Shown here: positions 30,300-61,980 of the stretch, piece by piece | How the letters are laid out: every line of letters starts with the position of its first letter | Numbering within the stretch: the stretch's first letter is position 1 | NCBI GenBank assembly: GCA_029961055.1 | Contig: JASBVM010000023.1 | Location: forward strand, 1-64,000 | Source: Bacillota bacterium | Lineage (GTDB): Bacteria > Bacillota > Sulfobacillia > JAIMAT01 | Direction: 5' to 3' | Length of the DNA stretch: 64,000 nucleotides | The notes under the pieces: model-generated | Seen by the model: only the letters and a program-made list of their open reading frames with translations | The model's database searches: none | Told to the model about the DNA's origin: nothing | Position numbers and translations under genes: made by a program

Positions 30300-31355
30300 A
30301 TGGGGGATTGGGCGTTGGACCGACAGAAAGCGCTGGATTCCGCCCTGCTCCAGATCGAGCGCCAATTCGGCAAGGGTGCCATCATGCGCATGGGCGAGGC
30401 GGCGGCGCAGATGCAGGTGGAGACCATCTCCACCGGTTCGCTTGCCCTGGACCTGGCGCTGGGCGTGGGCGGGCTGCCGCGGGGACGGGTGGTGGAGATC
30501 TTCGGTCCCGAGTCCTCGGGCAAGACGACCGTCGCGCTCCACGTGATCGCCGAGGCGCAGAAGGGAGGCGGCGTCGCCGCCTTCATCGACGCGGAGCACG
30601 CGCTCGATCCCAGCTACGCACGGGGCATCGGCGTCGACGTGGACAACCTCCTCATCTCGCAGCCCGACACGGGGGAGCAGGCTCTGGAGATCGCCGACGC
30701 CCTGGTCCGGTCCGGGGCGGTGGACGTGGTCGTGGTCGACTCGGTGGCGGCGCTGGTACCCAAGGCCGAGATCGAGGGGGAGATGGGCGACTCCCACGTG
30801 GGCCTTCAGGCGCGGCTGATGTCGCAGGCCCTGCGGAAGCTGACCGGCTCCATCTCGCGCTCGCGCACCTGCGTCGTCTTCATCAACCAGCTGCGCGAGA
30901 AGGTCGGCGTCATGTTCGGCAACCCCGAGGTGACCCCCGGCGGGCGGGCGCTCAAGTTCTACGCCTCGGTCCGCATCGACGTGCGCCGGGTGGAGTCGCT
31001 CAAGCAGGGGACGGAGAACGTCGGCATCCGCGTCCGCGCCAAGGTGGTCAAGAACAAGGTGGCGCCCCCCTTCAAGCAGGCAGAGTTCGACCTGCTCTAC
31101 GGGCGCGGCATCTCCAGGGAGGGCGACATCCTGGACATCGGCTCGGAGCTGGAGATCATCCTGCGCACGGGCGCGTGGTACGCCTACGGGGACGTGCGGC
31201 TGGGCCAGGGCAAGGAGAACGCCCGCGAGTACCTGCGGGAGCATCCGGAGCTGGCGGCCGAGATCGAGGCCAGGATCCGGGAGCGGCTGGGCGGCTCGAT
31301 GGTCGCGGCCGCCACGGCGGCCGCGGACGACGACGAACCGGGAGTGGGCGAGTGA
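30300..31355 (+). CDS. recA: Recombinase RecA
   Basis: A RecA of about 351 residues that forms filaments on single-stranded DNA, exchanges strands and stimulates LexA-type cleavage. The core starts with [20 protein letters not shown]. Walker A is GPESSGKT (69-76). [18 protein letters not shown], the L1/L2 loops and [15 protein letters not shown] are intact. The start is uncertain: GTG 30285, ATG 30300 and TTG 30315 are in frame. The TTG aligns best with Bacillus RecA and has GGGGGA 8 nt upstream; I give the ATG as a neutral choice. The stop overlaps recX. No inteins or insertions are seen. Confidence 0.97.
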
Positions 31356-58709: not shown

Positions 58710-59876
58710 GTGGCGATGGGTGCCTTCGACCTGACCGAGGAGGAGCGGGCGCTGGCGGAGCTGGCGCGCCGGGTGGCCGAGGAGCGGGTGGCGCCCCGGG
58801 CGGCCGAGATCGACCTGGAGGACCGCTTCCCGGACGACCTCAGGCGGCTCTTCGGCGAGCTGGAGCTGATGGGGCTCGGCATCCCGGCGGCCTACGGCGG
58901 CGGTGGCGCCGGCCTCCTCGCCGTCTGCCTGGTGATCGAGGAGCTGGCGCGGGTGAGCGCCGCGGCCTCGCTGATCGTGGCCGATCACGAGCTGGGCCTG
59001 CTGCCTGTGCTGGTCGGGGCGTCGGAGGAGCAGAAGCGGGCCTGGCTCCCGGCCATCGCCTCGGGCGAGCGGCTGATGGCCTTCGCCCTGACCGAGCCGG
59101 AGGCGGGCTCTGACGCCGCCCGCCTCTCCATGCGCGCCGTCCGCCGCGGCGACCGCTACGTCCTCAGCGGCACCAAACGCTTCATCACGCACGGGAACGT
59201 GGCCGACTCGCTCACCGTCTTCGCCAGCACCGACCCCGAGAAGGGGTCGAAGGGGATCACCTGCTTCCTGGTCGACCGGGAGACGCCGGGGTTGAGCGTG
59301 ACCAAGCTGGAGCGGAAGATGGGGCTCCACGGCTCGCCCACGGCGGAACTCCTCTTCGAAGAGGTGGAGGTGCCGGTGGAGAACCGGATCGGGGAGGAGG
59401 GCCAGGGCTTCCGCATCGCCATGGCCACCCTGGACCACAGCCGGCCCGGTATCGCCGCCCAGGCCCTGGGCATCGCCCAGGGCGCCCTGGACCAGGCGGT
59501 CGCCTACGCGCGGGAGCGCCGCCAGTTCGGCCGCCCCATCGCCGACTTCCAGGCGATCCAGTTCATGATCGCCGACATGGCCATCGCGGTGGAGTCGGCG
59601 CGCGCGCTCACCTACAAGGCGGCGACGGTGGTGGAGGAGGCCGACCACGGGCGCCTCGACTGGCGGATGGCCAACCGCTACTCGGCGATGGCCAAGACCT
59701 ACGCCTCGGATGTGGCCATGCGCGTGACCACCGACGCGGTCCAGATCTTCGGCGGCTACGGGTACATCGCCGACTACCCCGTGGAGCGGATGATGCGGGA
59801 CGCCAAGATCACCCAGATCTACGAGGGGACGAACCAGATCCAGCGCCTCGTGATCGCCCGCAGCTACCTCTCCTGA
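58710..59876 (+). CDS. Acyl-CoA dehydrogenase
   Basis: A 388-residue flavoenzyme that oxidises acyl-CoA to enoyl-CoA and reduces ETF. Motifs: FALTEPEAGSDAARL (FAD/substrate), GTKRFITHGNVADS, RKMGLHGSPTAEL, GIAQGALDQAVAYARERRQFG, QIFGGYGYIADYPVERMMRDAK and the end IYEGTNQIQRLVIA. The catalytic base is Glu372, in the position of short/medium-chain and butyryl-CoA dehydrogenases; isovaleryl-type enzymes carry it elsewhere. The GTG at 58710 or the ATG two codons on may be the start. It is the last gene of the etf operon, converging with lexA by a 13-bp overlap. Confidence 0.94.
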   Translation: MAMGAFDLTEEERALAELARRVAEERVAPRAAEIDLEDRFPDDLRRLFGELELMGLGIPAAYGGGGAGLLAVCLVIEELARVSAAASLIVADHELGLLPVLVGASEEQKRAWLPAIASGERLMAFALTEPEAGSDAARLSMRAVRRGDRYVLSGTKRFITHGNVADSLTVFASTDPEKGSKGITCFLVDRETPGLSVTKLERKMGLHGSPTAELLFEEVEVPVENRIGEEGQGFRIAMATLDHSRPGIAAQALGIAQGALDQAVAYARERRQFGRPIADFQAIQFMIADMAIAVESARALTYKAATVVEEADHGRLDWRMANRYSAMAKTYASDVAMRVTTDAVQIFGGYGYIADYPVERMMRDAKITQIYEGTNQIQRLVIARSYLS

Positions 59877-60568
59877 GCGGGCGACGGCGGCGCGCCCAGG
59901 GCATGGGGGGCGCCGCCGCCGGATGCGCCGGCGAGACCGTGGAGGACGGCCAGGACGCGCCCCACGAGGCGGACTTCGCGGCTGACCAGCGGCTGGACGC
60001 CGGGGTTGGCAGCCTGGAGCCGGACCGCGTCCCCCTCGGGAAGAAGGCGCCGGACCACCGGCTCGTCGCCCACCAGCGCCACCACCAGCTGCCCGGGCGA
60101 GGCCTCCGCCGCGGGGCCGCAGAGGACCAGGTCGCCGTCGCCGATGCCGGCGCCTTCCATGGCGCTCCCCTGGACGCGGAGCGCGTAGGCCGCGCGGCCG
60201 CCGGGGGCGTCGGCGGGCAGGACGAGCCAGGCGAGCGGGAGCGGGGCGGCGGCCGCCGGTTCGGGTGGCTTCGGCAGCAGGGGGATGCGGCGGAGGCCGC
60301 GGCCGGCCTCCCCCGCCGTGGCGGGGAGCCCCGCGAGCCCCACGAGGCCCAGGGCGCGCGGCCGCGAGCCTTCCTGGCGGAGGTAGCCCTTGCGCGCCAG
60401 CTCCCGCAGGTAGGCGTGGACGGTGGAGCTGGAGCGGAGGCCGACGCGGGCGCCGATCTCGCGGACCGAGGGCGGGTAGCCGTGCTCCCGGAGGAAGGCG
60501 TCGATGGTCTCGAGAATCTGCCGCTCGCGCGGCCGCAGCGCGGAGGTGGCCGGCCGGCCGGCGTCCAA
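59864..60568 (-). CDS. lexA: LexA-family repressor lacking the self-cleavage residues
   Basis: A 234-residue LexA homologue. The N-terminal winged helix is clear and normal (LRPRERQILETIDAFLREHG, then YPPSVREIGARVGLRSSSTV). The C-terminal S24-type domain is recognisable (YALRVQGSAMEGAGIGDGD; DEPVVRRLLPEGDAVRLQAAN). In active LexA the motif is GxSM with a catalytic Ser; here it is G134-S135-A136-M137, so Ala replaces it. The catalytic Lys (DEATVKRF in Bacillus) is Arg173. The Ala-Gly scissile bond is absent, replaced by a Pro/Ala-rich stretch (95-112). The TTG at 60568 is chosen because the mapped promoter would start transcription downstream of the only longer start (ATG 60625). It is probably autoregulated by the SOS-type box. 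Confidence 0.88.
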   Translation of the reverse strand: MDAGRPATSALRPRERQILETIDAFLREHGYPPSVREIGARVGLRSSSTVHAYLRELARKGYLRQEGSRPRALGLVGLAGLPATAGEAGRGLRRIPLLPKPPEPAAAAPLPLAWLVLPADAPGGRAAYALRVQGSAMEGAGIGDGDLVLCGPAAEASPGQLVVALVGDEPVVRRLLPEGDAVRLQAANPGVQPLVSREVRLVGRVLAVLHGLAGASGGGAPHALGAPPSPAQER

Positions 60569-60615
60569 GGCGACACCCCCCTGGCGCCACTCGTCAGCGC
60601 GGGCGCGCCGGCTGC

Positions 60616-60644
60616 ATGCTAGCATGGAGGAAGGACGCGGTCAA
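60616..60644 (-). promoter_or_regulatory. lexA promoter
   Basis: On the minus strand: TTGACC (60639-60644), a 17-bp spacer and TAGCAT (60616-60621). Transcription would start near 60609. The SOS-type box overlaps the -35 element. Confidence 0.75.
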
Positions 60645-60655
60645 ACAGACGTTCG
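60642..60655. promoter_or_regulatory. SOS (LexA/DinR) box
   Basis: CAAACAGACGTTCG matches the Bacillota consensus CGAAC-N4-GTTCG with one mismatch. Its place over the -35 element of lexA fits classical autorepression, and the divergent coaB gene may also be affected. Confidence 0.7.
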
Positions 60656-60694
60656 CCCCGGGGCCCGGTCGCCCGGGGTTCGAGGAGGTTGAGC

Positions 60695-61402
60695 GTGCGC
60701 CGGCCACACTTGATCGTCACCGGGGGTCCCACCGAGGCACCCCTGGACGAGGTCCGCTTCCTGTCCAACCGCTCGTCGGGACGGACGGCGGCGGCCGTCG
60801 CGGGCGCGGCGCTGGCGCGGGGCTGGGACGTCACCTTCGTCCACGGGCCGGGCAGCGCCTTGCCGCAGGGAGGGGAGGGGTGGCTCCGGCGGGTGGCCGT
60901 CCGCACGGTGGGCGACCTGGCCGCCGCGCTGGAGCGGCTCCTGCGCGATCCGGAGCGCCCCGTCGACGCGCTGGTCCACGCCATGGCCGTGCTCGACTTC
61001 GCCCCGGACCGGAGCATGGAGGGGAAGGTCTCGTCGCGAGGCGAGTGGTGGGTCCGCCTGGTGCCCACGCCCAAGGTGGTGGAGCAGATCCGCCGCTGGG
61101 CGCCGGGGATCTTCCTGGTCGCCTTCAAGCTGGAGGCGGGGGAGGAGCCGGAGGAGCTGGTGCGGGCGGCGCGGGAGGCGGCCGCCCGCCACGGGGCCGA
61201 CCTGGTGGTGGCCAACAGCCTCCGCCAGGTCGGCGCCGACCGCCACGTCACCTACCTGGTCGACCCGCACGGGGGCGAGGTGCGGCGGAGCGAGACCAAC
61301 GCCGAACTGGCCGCCCTCCTGCTGGAGCGGATCGAGGCCCGCCTGGCGCCCAGGCGGGAGCCGGTGGAGAGCTGCGGGCGTCCCGGAGGCGGTCGGGGTT
61401 GA
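60695..61402 (+). CDS. coaB: Phosphopantothenate-cysteine ligase CoaB
   Basis: A 235-residue enzyme that joins 4'-phosphopantothenate and cysteine in coenzyme A synthesis. Motifs: LIVTGGPTEAPLDEVRFLSNRSSGR at the N-terminus, HAMAVLDFAPDRSMEGKVSS in the middle, LVPTPKVVEQIR, FKLE and DLVVANSL. It stands alone instead of being the C-terminal half of a CoaBC (Dfp) fusion. The GTG at 60695 has GGAGG 6 nt upstream; the TTG at 60689 is too close to it. The stop overlaps the start of coaC (TTGA). Confidence 0.92.
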   Translation: MRRPHLIVTGGPTEAPLDEVRFLSNRSSGRTAAAVAGAALARGWDVTFVHGPGSALPQGGEGWLRRVAVRTVGDLAAALERLLRDPERPVDALVHAMAVLDFAPDRSMEGKVSSRGEWWVRLVPTPKVVEQIRRWAPGIFLVAFKLEAGEEPEELVRAAREAAARHGADLVVANSLRQVGADRHVTYLVDPHGGEVRRSETNAELAALLLERIEARLAPRREPVESCGRPGGGRG

Positions 61403-61980
61403 GCGGGGGGGGCGAGGGGGCGCGCCCGCGGCTGGACGGGCGGCGCCTCCTCCTGGGCGTGACGGGCGGCATCGCCGCGTACAAGGTGCCGGAGCTGATC
61501 CGGCGGCTTCGCACCGAGGGCGCCGAGGTGGAGGTGATCCTCACCCGCGGGGCGACGGAGTTCGTGACGCCGCTGACGCTGGAGACGGTGGCCGGCCGGC
61601 CGGTCCACGAGAGCCTGCTGGGTCCCGCACGGGAGCCGTCGCTCATCCACCTGGAGCTGGCGCACTGGGCGGAGATGGTGCTGGTGGCGCCGGCGACCGC
61701 CCACTTCCTGGCCAAGGCGGCGGCGGGGCTGGCCGACGACCTGCTGGGGGCGGTGCTCCTCGCCTCCTTTCCGGAGGTGCCCCTGCTGGTGGCGCCGGCC
61801 ATGAACAGCCGCATGTGGACCCACCCCATCACGCAGCGGAACGTGGCGCTCCTGCGCGAGGTGGGCGTCCGCTTCGTGGGACCGGAGGTGGGCCGGCTCG
61901 CCGAGGAGCAGGTCGGGATCGGCCGCATGAGCGAGCCCGGGCGGATCGTGGAGGAAGTGGTGCGGCTCCTGGACGCCTGA
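61399..61980 (+). CDS. coaC: Phosphopantothenoylcysteine decarboxylase CoaC
   Basis: A 193-residue flavoprotein of the HFCD family that decarboxylates phosphopantothenoylcysteine. Conserved parts: LLLGVTGGIAAYKVPELIRRL (FMN), HLELAHWAEMVLVAPATAHFLAKAAAGLADDLL with the catalytic His, VAPAMNSRMW and GIGRMSEPGRIVEEV. It is separate from coaB and lies after it, the reverse of the domain order in CoaBC fusions. The TTG at 61399 overlaps the coaB stop. CoA supply fits the neighbouring acyl-CoA and 2-oxoacid oxidoreductase genes. Confidence 0.92.
   Translation: MSGGGEGARPRLDGRRLLLGVTGGIAAYKVPELIRRLRTEGAEVEVILTRGATEFVTPLTLETVAGRPVHESLLGPAREPSLIHLELAHWAEMVLVAPATAHFLAKAAAGLADDLLGAVLLASFPEVPLLVAPAMNSRMWTHPITQRNVALLREVGVRFVGPEVGRLAEEQVGIGRMSEPGRIVEEVVRLLDA

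Follow-up and report, generated by a model that had tools for sequence, protein, structure and literature searches.

In the lineage of the uncultured Bacillota bacterium examined here, control of the SOS response has probably passed from LexA to a repressor of the CI/XRE type that carries an S24 peptidase domain (XRE-S24). Sensing of the RecA filament and release of the mutasome would have moved from LexA, whose gene lies in the window (the whole 64-kb stretch of DNA analysed), to an XRE-S24 protein encoded on contig C49 of the same genome (G000). How bacteria switch the master regulator of the DNA damage response is an open question, and where an S24 protein is reported to have replaced LexA, only the outcome is seen, LexA itself having disappeared. 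In the present genome, a LexA predicted to lack self-cleavage still stands beside its apparent successor, whose operon has LexA boxes in related genomes. This situation offers a model for the order of events, in which the mutasome acquires a new repressor first and LexA loses cleavage afterwards or at the same time.

LexA in the window and its self-cleavage residues

The window gene is a genuine lexA. Its product matches LexA_DNA_bind (PF01726, E 1.4e-19) and Peptidase_S24 (PF00717, E 2.7e-17) in Pfam and scores above the NCBIfam cut-off for TIGR00498 (114.8 bits versus 110.95), in line with the initial annotation of a LexA homologue with a normal DNA-binding domain. The S24 match begins at profile position 30, and the segment that should hold the cleavage site is therefore unrecognised. 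The genus has two further species, G001 and G002, with orthologues at 74% and 69%, respectively. That annotation had given the gene a span of 59,864-60,655; lexA is indeed there, but its 5' end is probably the TTG at 60,568, downstream of the promoter, and not 60,625 or 60,655. A mechanical ATG reading frame extends to 60,625. We favour the TTG because this ATG sits inside the promoter spacer, between the -35 and -10 elements, and residue numbers 136 and 173 used below agree with the TTG start.

The lexA promoter reads TTGACC-17 nt-TAGCAT with an extended -10, an arrangement that occurred in none of 50 shuffles of the region. The LexA box over its -35, recognised at the outset, is an exact match to CGAACNNNNGTTYG and the sole exact site within the window. 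In G001 and G002 the box is present as NGAACNNCTGTTTGACC and likewise overlies the -35. Upstream of lexA, GAACNNCTGTTTGACC and CATGCTAGCATGCAGCCGGC are common to the three species, while the surrounding sequence varies. Conservation of the left half-box (GAAC) is the more telling, because the right half is also held by the -35. The predicted box supports retained autorepression of lexA for the window's genus only; at lexA of two other genomes described below, G018 and G061, it is poor or absent. Across the common intergenic region lie a CoaB-like and then a CoaC-like gene that are, by eye, separate and adjacent, an order and splitting that differ from the usual CoaC-CoaB fusion.

We read the catalytic positions against LexA of B. 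subtilis and E. coli. The motif 'GSAM' aligns without gaps to 'GDSM' of B. subtilis, which places Ala136, not Ser135, at the nucleophile position, and 'PVVRRL' aligns without gaps to 'ATVKRF', which places Arg173 at the catalytic Lys. Both substitutions are found in G001 and G002. The Ala-Gly scissile bond is absent from the window LexA, which has 'PAAAAP' at that place, whereas the sister proteins have an AG dipeptide in altered context ('GAGAPS' in G001, 'EAGDPP' in G002). Of the three losses first claimed, those of Ser and Lys thus extend through the genus and that of Ala-Gly does not. The structural model has a LexA fold (mean pLDDT 80), and the nearest PDB structures found by Foldseek include the engineered uncleavable variants S119A and S125A. 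The Ser-Lys dyad and the Ala-Gly bond of a self-cleaving SOS repressor are both missing. Sequence, conservation in the genus and modelled fold agree in supporting the earlier prediction that this LexA is unable to cleave itself, so that RecA could not relieve its repression in the usual way.

Such losses are rare in the class. We aligned 145 LexA copies, from 141 of 154 class genomes and one extra genome, G061. Ser, Lys and Ala-Gly are intact in every readable copy except those of the window's genus (Ala/Arg at the Ser/Lys positions), G018 (Asp/Arg), G061 (Thr/Ile, its sole LexA, also without Ala-Gly) and an extra copy in G053 (Arg/Arg); the G014 copy is interrupted by a contig end. The C-terminal domains of G018 and G061 are more degenerate. 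G053 has an intact LexA and this second, longer LexA-like protein (L078, G053:C45; L065, G053:C50), a predicted uncleavable paralogue beside a normal one. Thirteen of the 154 genomes gave no LexA match; among them are G009, G034 and G086, members of one genus and 96-97% complete, from which LexA may be truly absent.

No second LexA proper was found in the window's genome; a weak match on contig C4 is, by eye, a different winged-HTH protein. The genome has ten exact CGAACNNNNGTTYG sites, which do not make a regulon: nearly all lie within ordinary genes (clpX, dnaN, EF-G, lepA and ABC transporters, named by eye). A perfect palindrome, CGAACTCCCGTTCG, upstream of a pilB/gspE-like gene is possibly the only other intergenic exact box. 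Strict boxes common to G000 and its sister species are all intragenic apart from that of lexA itself, and genome-wide scans found no genus-conserved box outside the lexA promoter. The promoter region of recA reads TTGTCA-17-GATACT by eye; with no box within one mismatch nearby, we rejected recA as a LexA target.

Table 1. Coordinates of the features discussed. Positions are those of the window unless a contig or locus is named.
Feature	Position	Strand	Remarks
recA	30318..31283	+	TIGR02012, 568 bits
lexA coding sequence	59864..60568	-	likely TTG start; 234 aa plus stop; PF01726, PF00717, TIGR00498
Arg173 codon, catalytic Lys position	60050..60052	-	VVRR for TVKR; alignment of 145 LexA sequences
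Ala136 codon, catalytic Ser position	60161..60163	-	alignment of 145 LexA sequences
lexA -10, TAGCAT	60616..60621	-	TG-extended; identical in G000, G001 and G002
lexA -35, TTGACC	60639..60644	-	identical in G000, G001 and G002
LexA (SOS) box CGAACGTCTGTTTG	60642..60655	-	overlaps lexA -35; exact match to CGAACNNNNGTTYG
CoaB/Dfp-like gene	60689..61402	+	divergent from lexA, common intergenic region; family by eye; same arrangement in G002
CoaC-like gene	about 61400-61980	+	by eye
XRE-S24 repressor gene	G000, contig C49:12028-12936		outside the 64-kb window; CI/XRE HTH and S24 domain
imuB'	L111:9062-9592; L112:3810-4322; L113:7732-8250; L114:10696-11133; L142:3343-3855		146-177 aa
XRE-S24-type operator TGTTCACCGCGCGTGAACG	G000:C8:10009-10027 (L364:3010-3028)		upstream of small mobile-element-like ORFs
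Palindrome CGAACTCCCGTTCG	G000:C22:10271-10284 (L037)		upstream of pilB/gspE-like gene

An XRE-S24 repressor beside the mutasome operon

The best S24 match in the window's genome is the C49 protein, not LexA. It joins a CI-type HTH (PF01381, HTH_3, E 5.6e-11; HTH_31 also matched) to a full S24 domain (PF00717 positions 1-115, E 1.8e-23), the architecture of an SOS-type S24 repressor. Ala177-Gly178, Ser209 and Lys247 are invariant in four orthologues and present in the G061 copy too, and both domains are under purifying selection. Full-length orthologues occur in only four of the 154 class genomes, G000-G002 and G018, at an E cut-off of 1e-23 that more divergent relatives could escape. A scan of named GTDB genomes with the protein added one more, FK5.bin106 (G061, locus L142). 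The further XRE-S24 proteins of G129, G033 and G053 are separate proteins. Those of G129 (L361, G129:C44) and G033 (L362), CI-type proteins in apparent mobile elements, adjoin recombinase or phage-like genes, and the G033 protein has two XRE-like domains.

Carriers of XRE-S24 in the class are exactly the class genomes whose sole LexA has lost Ser and Lys. A predicted uncleavable LexA accompanies XRE-S24 in all three lineages that have it (the window's genus, G018 and G061) and is the sole LexA in no class genome without it. G061 serves as an out-of-sample check: it was picked by XRE-S24 alone, and its LexA then proved degenerate. At the genus level the coincidence concerns 2 of 82 genera, which simple arithmetic puts at a chance of about 3e-4, a count weakened by the kinship of DnaE2 in the genus and G018, which are sisters (support 100/99).

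In all five genomes the XRE-S24 gene is divergent from genes for a truncated ImuB-like protein (ImuB') and a DUF6504 protein, and in four of them a DnaE2-type polymerase follows; on the stretch read in G061, no DnaE2 lies beside the locus. The best NCBIfam match of this polymerase is 'error-prone DNA polymerase', slightly below the cut-off. ImuB' is short, folds like the 'little finger' of Y-family polymerases and matches IMS_C weakly, and its model resembles Y-family polymerases over about 100 residues. The protein ends in a conserved C-terminal RRE..L.F.DP tail, and most relatives have a longer ORF at this place.

Palindromes of the form TGTACAC-N5-GTGAACA, a candidate operator, lie between XRE-S24 and the mutasome genes in four genomes, and a variant, CGTTTACCGTAAGCGTACA, occupies the corresponding place in G061. 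The C49 protein thus has a putative palindromic site both at its own gene and at error-prone polymerase genes. At two mismatches or fewer, the four genomes hold 2, 2, 3 and 1 sites, of which six of the eight fall in the intergenic region. By our own estimate from base composition, chance would give about 1.6 sites per genome at this threshold and about 0.06 at one mismatch or fewer. The intergenic sites are thus not what chance predicts, and other single sites mean little. Because sites with up to two mismatches occur genome-wide in near-chance numbers, further targets of XRE-S24 cannot be named. One other strong site, TGTTCACCGCGCGTGAACG, is possibly a second target, or else a chance occurrence. 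We found no XRE-S24 operator at lexA.

Comparison with relatives in the class that have an intact LexA gives the chief evidence that the regulator changed. In most of them, the ORF ahead of DUF6504 in the homologous operon is longer, at about 360-490 codons. Seven relatives carry an exact LexA box at a distance of 1.2-1.45 kb upstream of DUF6504, and several more carry boxes with one mismatch; among the operons read in relatives, about one in two has no exact box, and some of these are cut by contig ends. On the mutasome operon of the five XRE-S24 genomes, no LexA box was found at one mismatch or fewer.

A proposed hand-over of SOS control and competing explanations

We propose that XRE-S24 binds the TGTACAC-N5-GTGAACA-type palindromes in the region common to its own gene and imuB'-DUF6504-dnaE2. 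Upon DNA damage, RecA would stimulate self-cleavage of XRE-S24 at Ala177-Gly178, which would free both its own gene and the operon. In this account the catalytic Ser and Lys of LexA were lost once it was relieved of sensing, and LexA would now be an uninducible repressor that remains on its own promoter regardless of damage; through the box it has kept, it would set its own level and possibly that of a few further genes. The LexA losses and the intact XRE-S24 residues are read in the sequences, as are the operon with its operator, the co-occurrence and the LexA boxes of relatives; operator binding, RecA-dependent cleavage, derepression and the present role of LexA we infer, the first three from conserved residues and operators. 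The initial annotation had considered a rewired regulon or a different inducing signal. Rewiring is supported, but by way of an XRE-S24 repressor on the mutasome operon rather than a second LexA or new targets of LexA itself, and no observation points to a non-SOS signal for the window LexA.

The lineages that combine XRE-S24 with a disarmed LexA are few. Given that DnaE2 of the window's genus and of G018 are sisters, the mutasome locus may have switched regulator once and then been inherited or transferred. The residue changes in LexA differ between lineages, which suggests that cleavage was lost separately in each, after the switch.

A more specific form of this proposal, which we regard as an even bet, is that the old sensor has been kept in a disarmed state. 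LexA would be a conserved, DNA-binding, uninducible repressor of itself, and the phage-type S24 protein would be the only RecA-responsive repressor, with the mutasome alone under its control. The two circuits would be insulated from one another, with no LexA box on the mutasome operon and no XRE-S24 operator at lexA. The present role of LexA is the weakest point of the hand-over account, because no conserved box is found beyond its own promoter, none is found at recA, and in G018 and G061 the box at lexA is either poor or missing.

It is conceivable, though unlikely, that LexA still answers DNA damage or another stress without self-cleavage, through ClpXP or another protease, phosphorylation, a ligand or redox state, and that XRE-S24 is an unrelated addition. 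Control of this sort has been proposed for cyanobacterial LexA, and Synechocystis LexA lacks cleavage residues and seems to be controlled by modification (PMC3091678; PMC7567884). The C-terminal domain of LexA in the window's genus is modelled with a LexA fold and is under some constraint (dN/dS 0.35-0.37), but dimerisation alone would also leave residual constraint. Moreover, control of this kind leaves unexplained both the coincidence of LexA loss with XRE-S24 at the mutasome in three lineages and the loss of LexA boxes from the operon.

The same dN/dS values are relaxed relative to three genera with intact LexA (0.03-0.11), and the C-terminal domains of G018 and G061 are more degenerate still, with boxes poor or absent. 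LexA could be decaying, a pseudogene in the making with no retained function, as a consequence of the loss of a LexA-run SOS response. We consider this very unlikely: the reading frame, the promoter, the box over the -35 and the HTH, which is strongly constrained (dN/dS 0.08-0.17), are kept in three species, recA is intact and the mutasome operon is maintained.

Less probable again is that XRE-S24 is a resident or domesticated phage CI repressor that plays no role in the SOS response and is adjacent to the mutasome by accident. Its best PHROG is phrog_4, a phage repressor family, and the class has further XRE-S24 proteins, in G129 and G033, that sit in apparent mobile elements. However, no phage genes were recognised around the locus, both domains are under purifying selection, the synteny and the operator shared with the mutasome operon are conserved in three lineages, and the protein co-occurs with loss in LexA. 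Finally, although these are draft assemblies of many contigs, faulty assembly or sequencing of the catalytic codons is excluded in practice, as three separately assembled species have the identical two substitutions with GAACNNCTGTTTGACC kept upstream, and G018 and G061 have different, equally disabling changes.

Relation to known SOS systems

The SOS network has been argued to have re-evolved several times (PMC8565304). S24 repressors that replace LexA are already known, as is an uncleavable LexA from a cyanobacterium. What appears to be new, judging from sequence, is the combination, a LexA retained but disarmed beside a cleavage-competent successor. Among open-licence papers, where absence is weak evidence, we came upon none that describes a disarmed LexA alongside a cleavable successor at a mutasome operon, nor any study of the SOS response in this bacterial group.

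The window LexA resembles canonical LexA of E. coli and B. subtilis in its winged HTH, its S24 fold and an SOS box over its own promoter. It differs in that Ser and Lys are replaced, the cleavage segment is unrecognisable and no conserved target is recognised other than itself. The cyanobacterial comparison made at the outset is apt for the lost residues. LexA of Synechocystis PCC 6803 has Asp for Ser and Gly-Gly for Ala-Gly (PMC3091678), and is a regulator kept without its cleavage residues and with stress-related targets (PMC3091678; PMC7567884). It is thus like the window LexA in the natural loss of the catalytic Ser and Ala-Gly, and unlike it in the residues that took their place; the portions of these sources available to us describe no mutasome operon under an S24 replacement. 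The other half of the comparison, control of non-SOS genes, is not indicated for the window LexA.

The C49 protein has a parallel in Bacteroidetes, which have no LexA and use CI-type S24 SOS repressors with their own palindromic operators (e.g. CTAA-N5-TTAG) and a broad regulon that includes imuA-imuB-dnaE2 (PMC8565304). The CI-type HTH, the S24 domain with cleavage residues, a palindrome of its own and the mutasome target are common to both systems; here, however, LexA persists, predicted to be uncleavable, and the regulon looks local. HdiR of Streptococcaceae and UmuDAb of Moraxellaceae are summarised in PMC8565304 as non-LexA S24 regulators of minimal error-prone polymerase regulons, and Acinetobacter, where UmuDAb acts, is without LexA (PMC3978071). 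Like them, the C49 protein is a non-LexA S24 protein placed over error-prone polymerases. The likeness proposed here to HdiR and the Bacteroidetes repressors is one of kind, not of descent. HdiR and UmuDAb are not known to target an ImuB'/DUF6504/DnaE2 operon, nor is a disarmed LexA known beside them.

An XRE regulator of Myxococcus activates dnaE2, directly or indirectly; it has an oligomerisation domain, and its description nowhere mentions S24 (PMC12288472). Operons without ImuA that combine an inactive PolY, a standalone ImuB-C and DnaE2, often with lexA, are known, for example, from Kyrpidia (PMC6511836). The mutasome operon of the window's genus is likewise ImuA-less, but its Y-family part is cut to about 146-177 aa and its partner regulator is XRE-S24.
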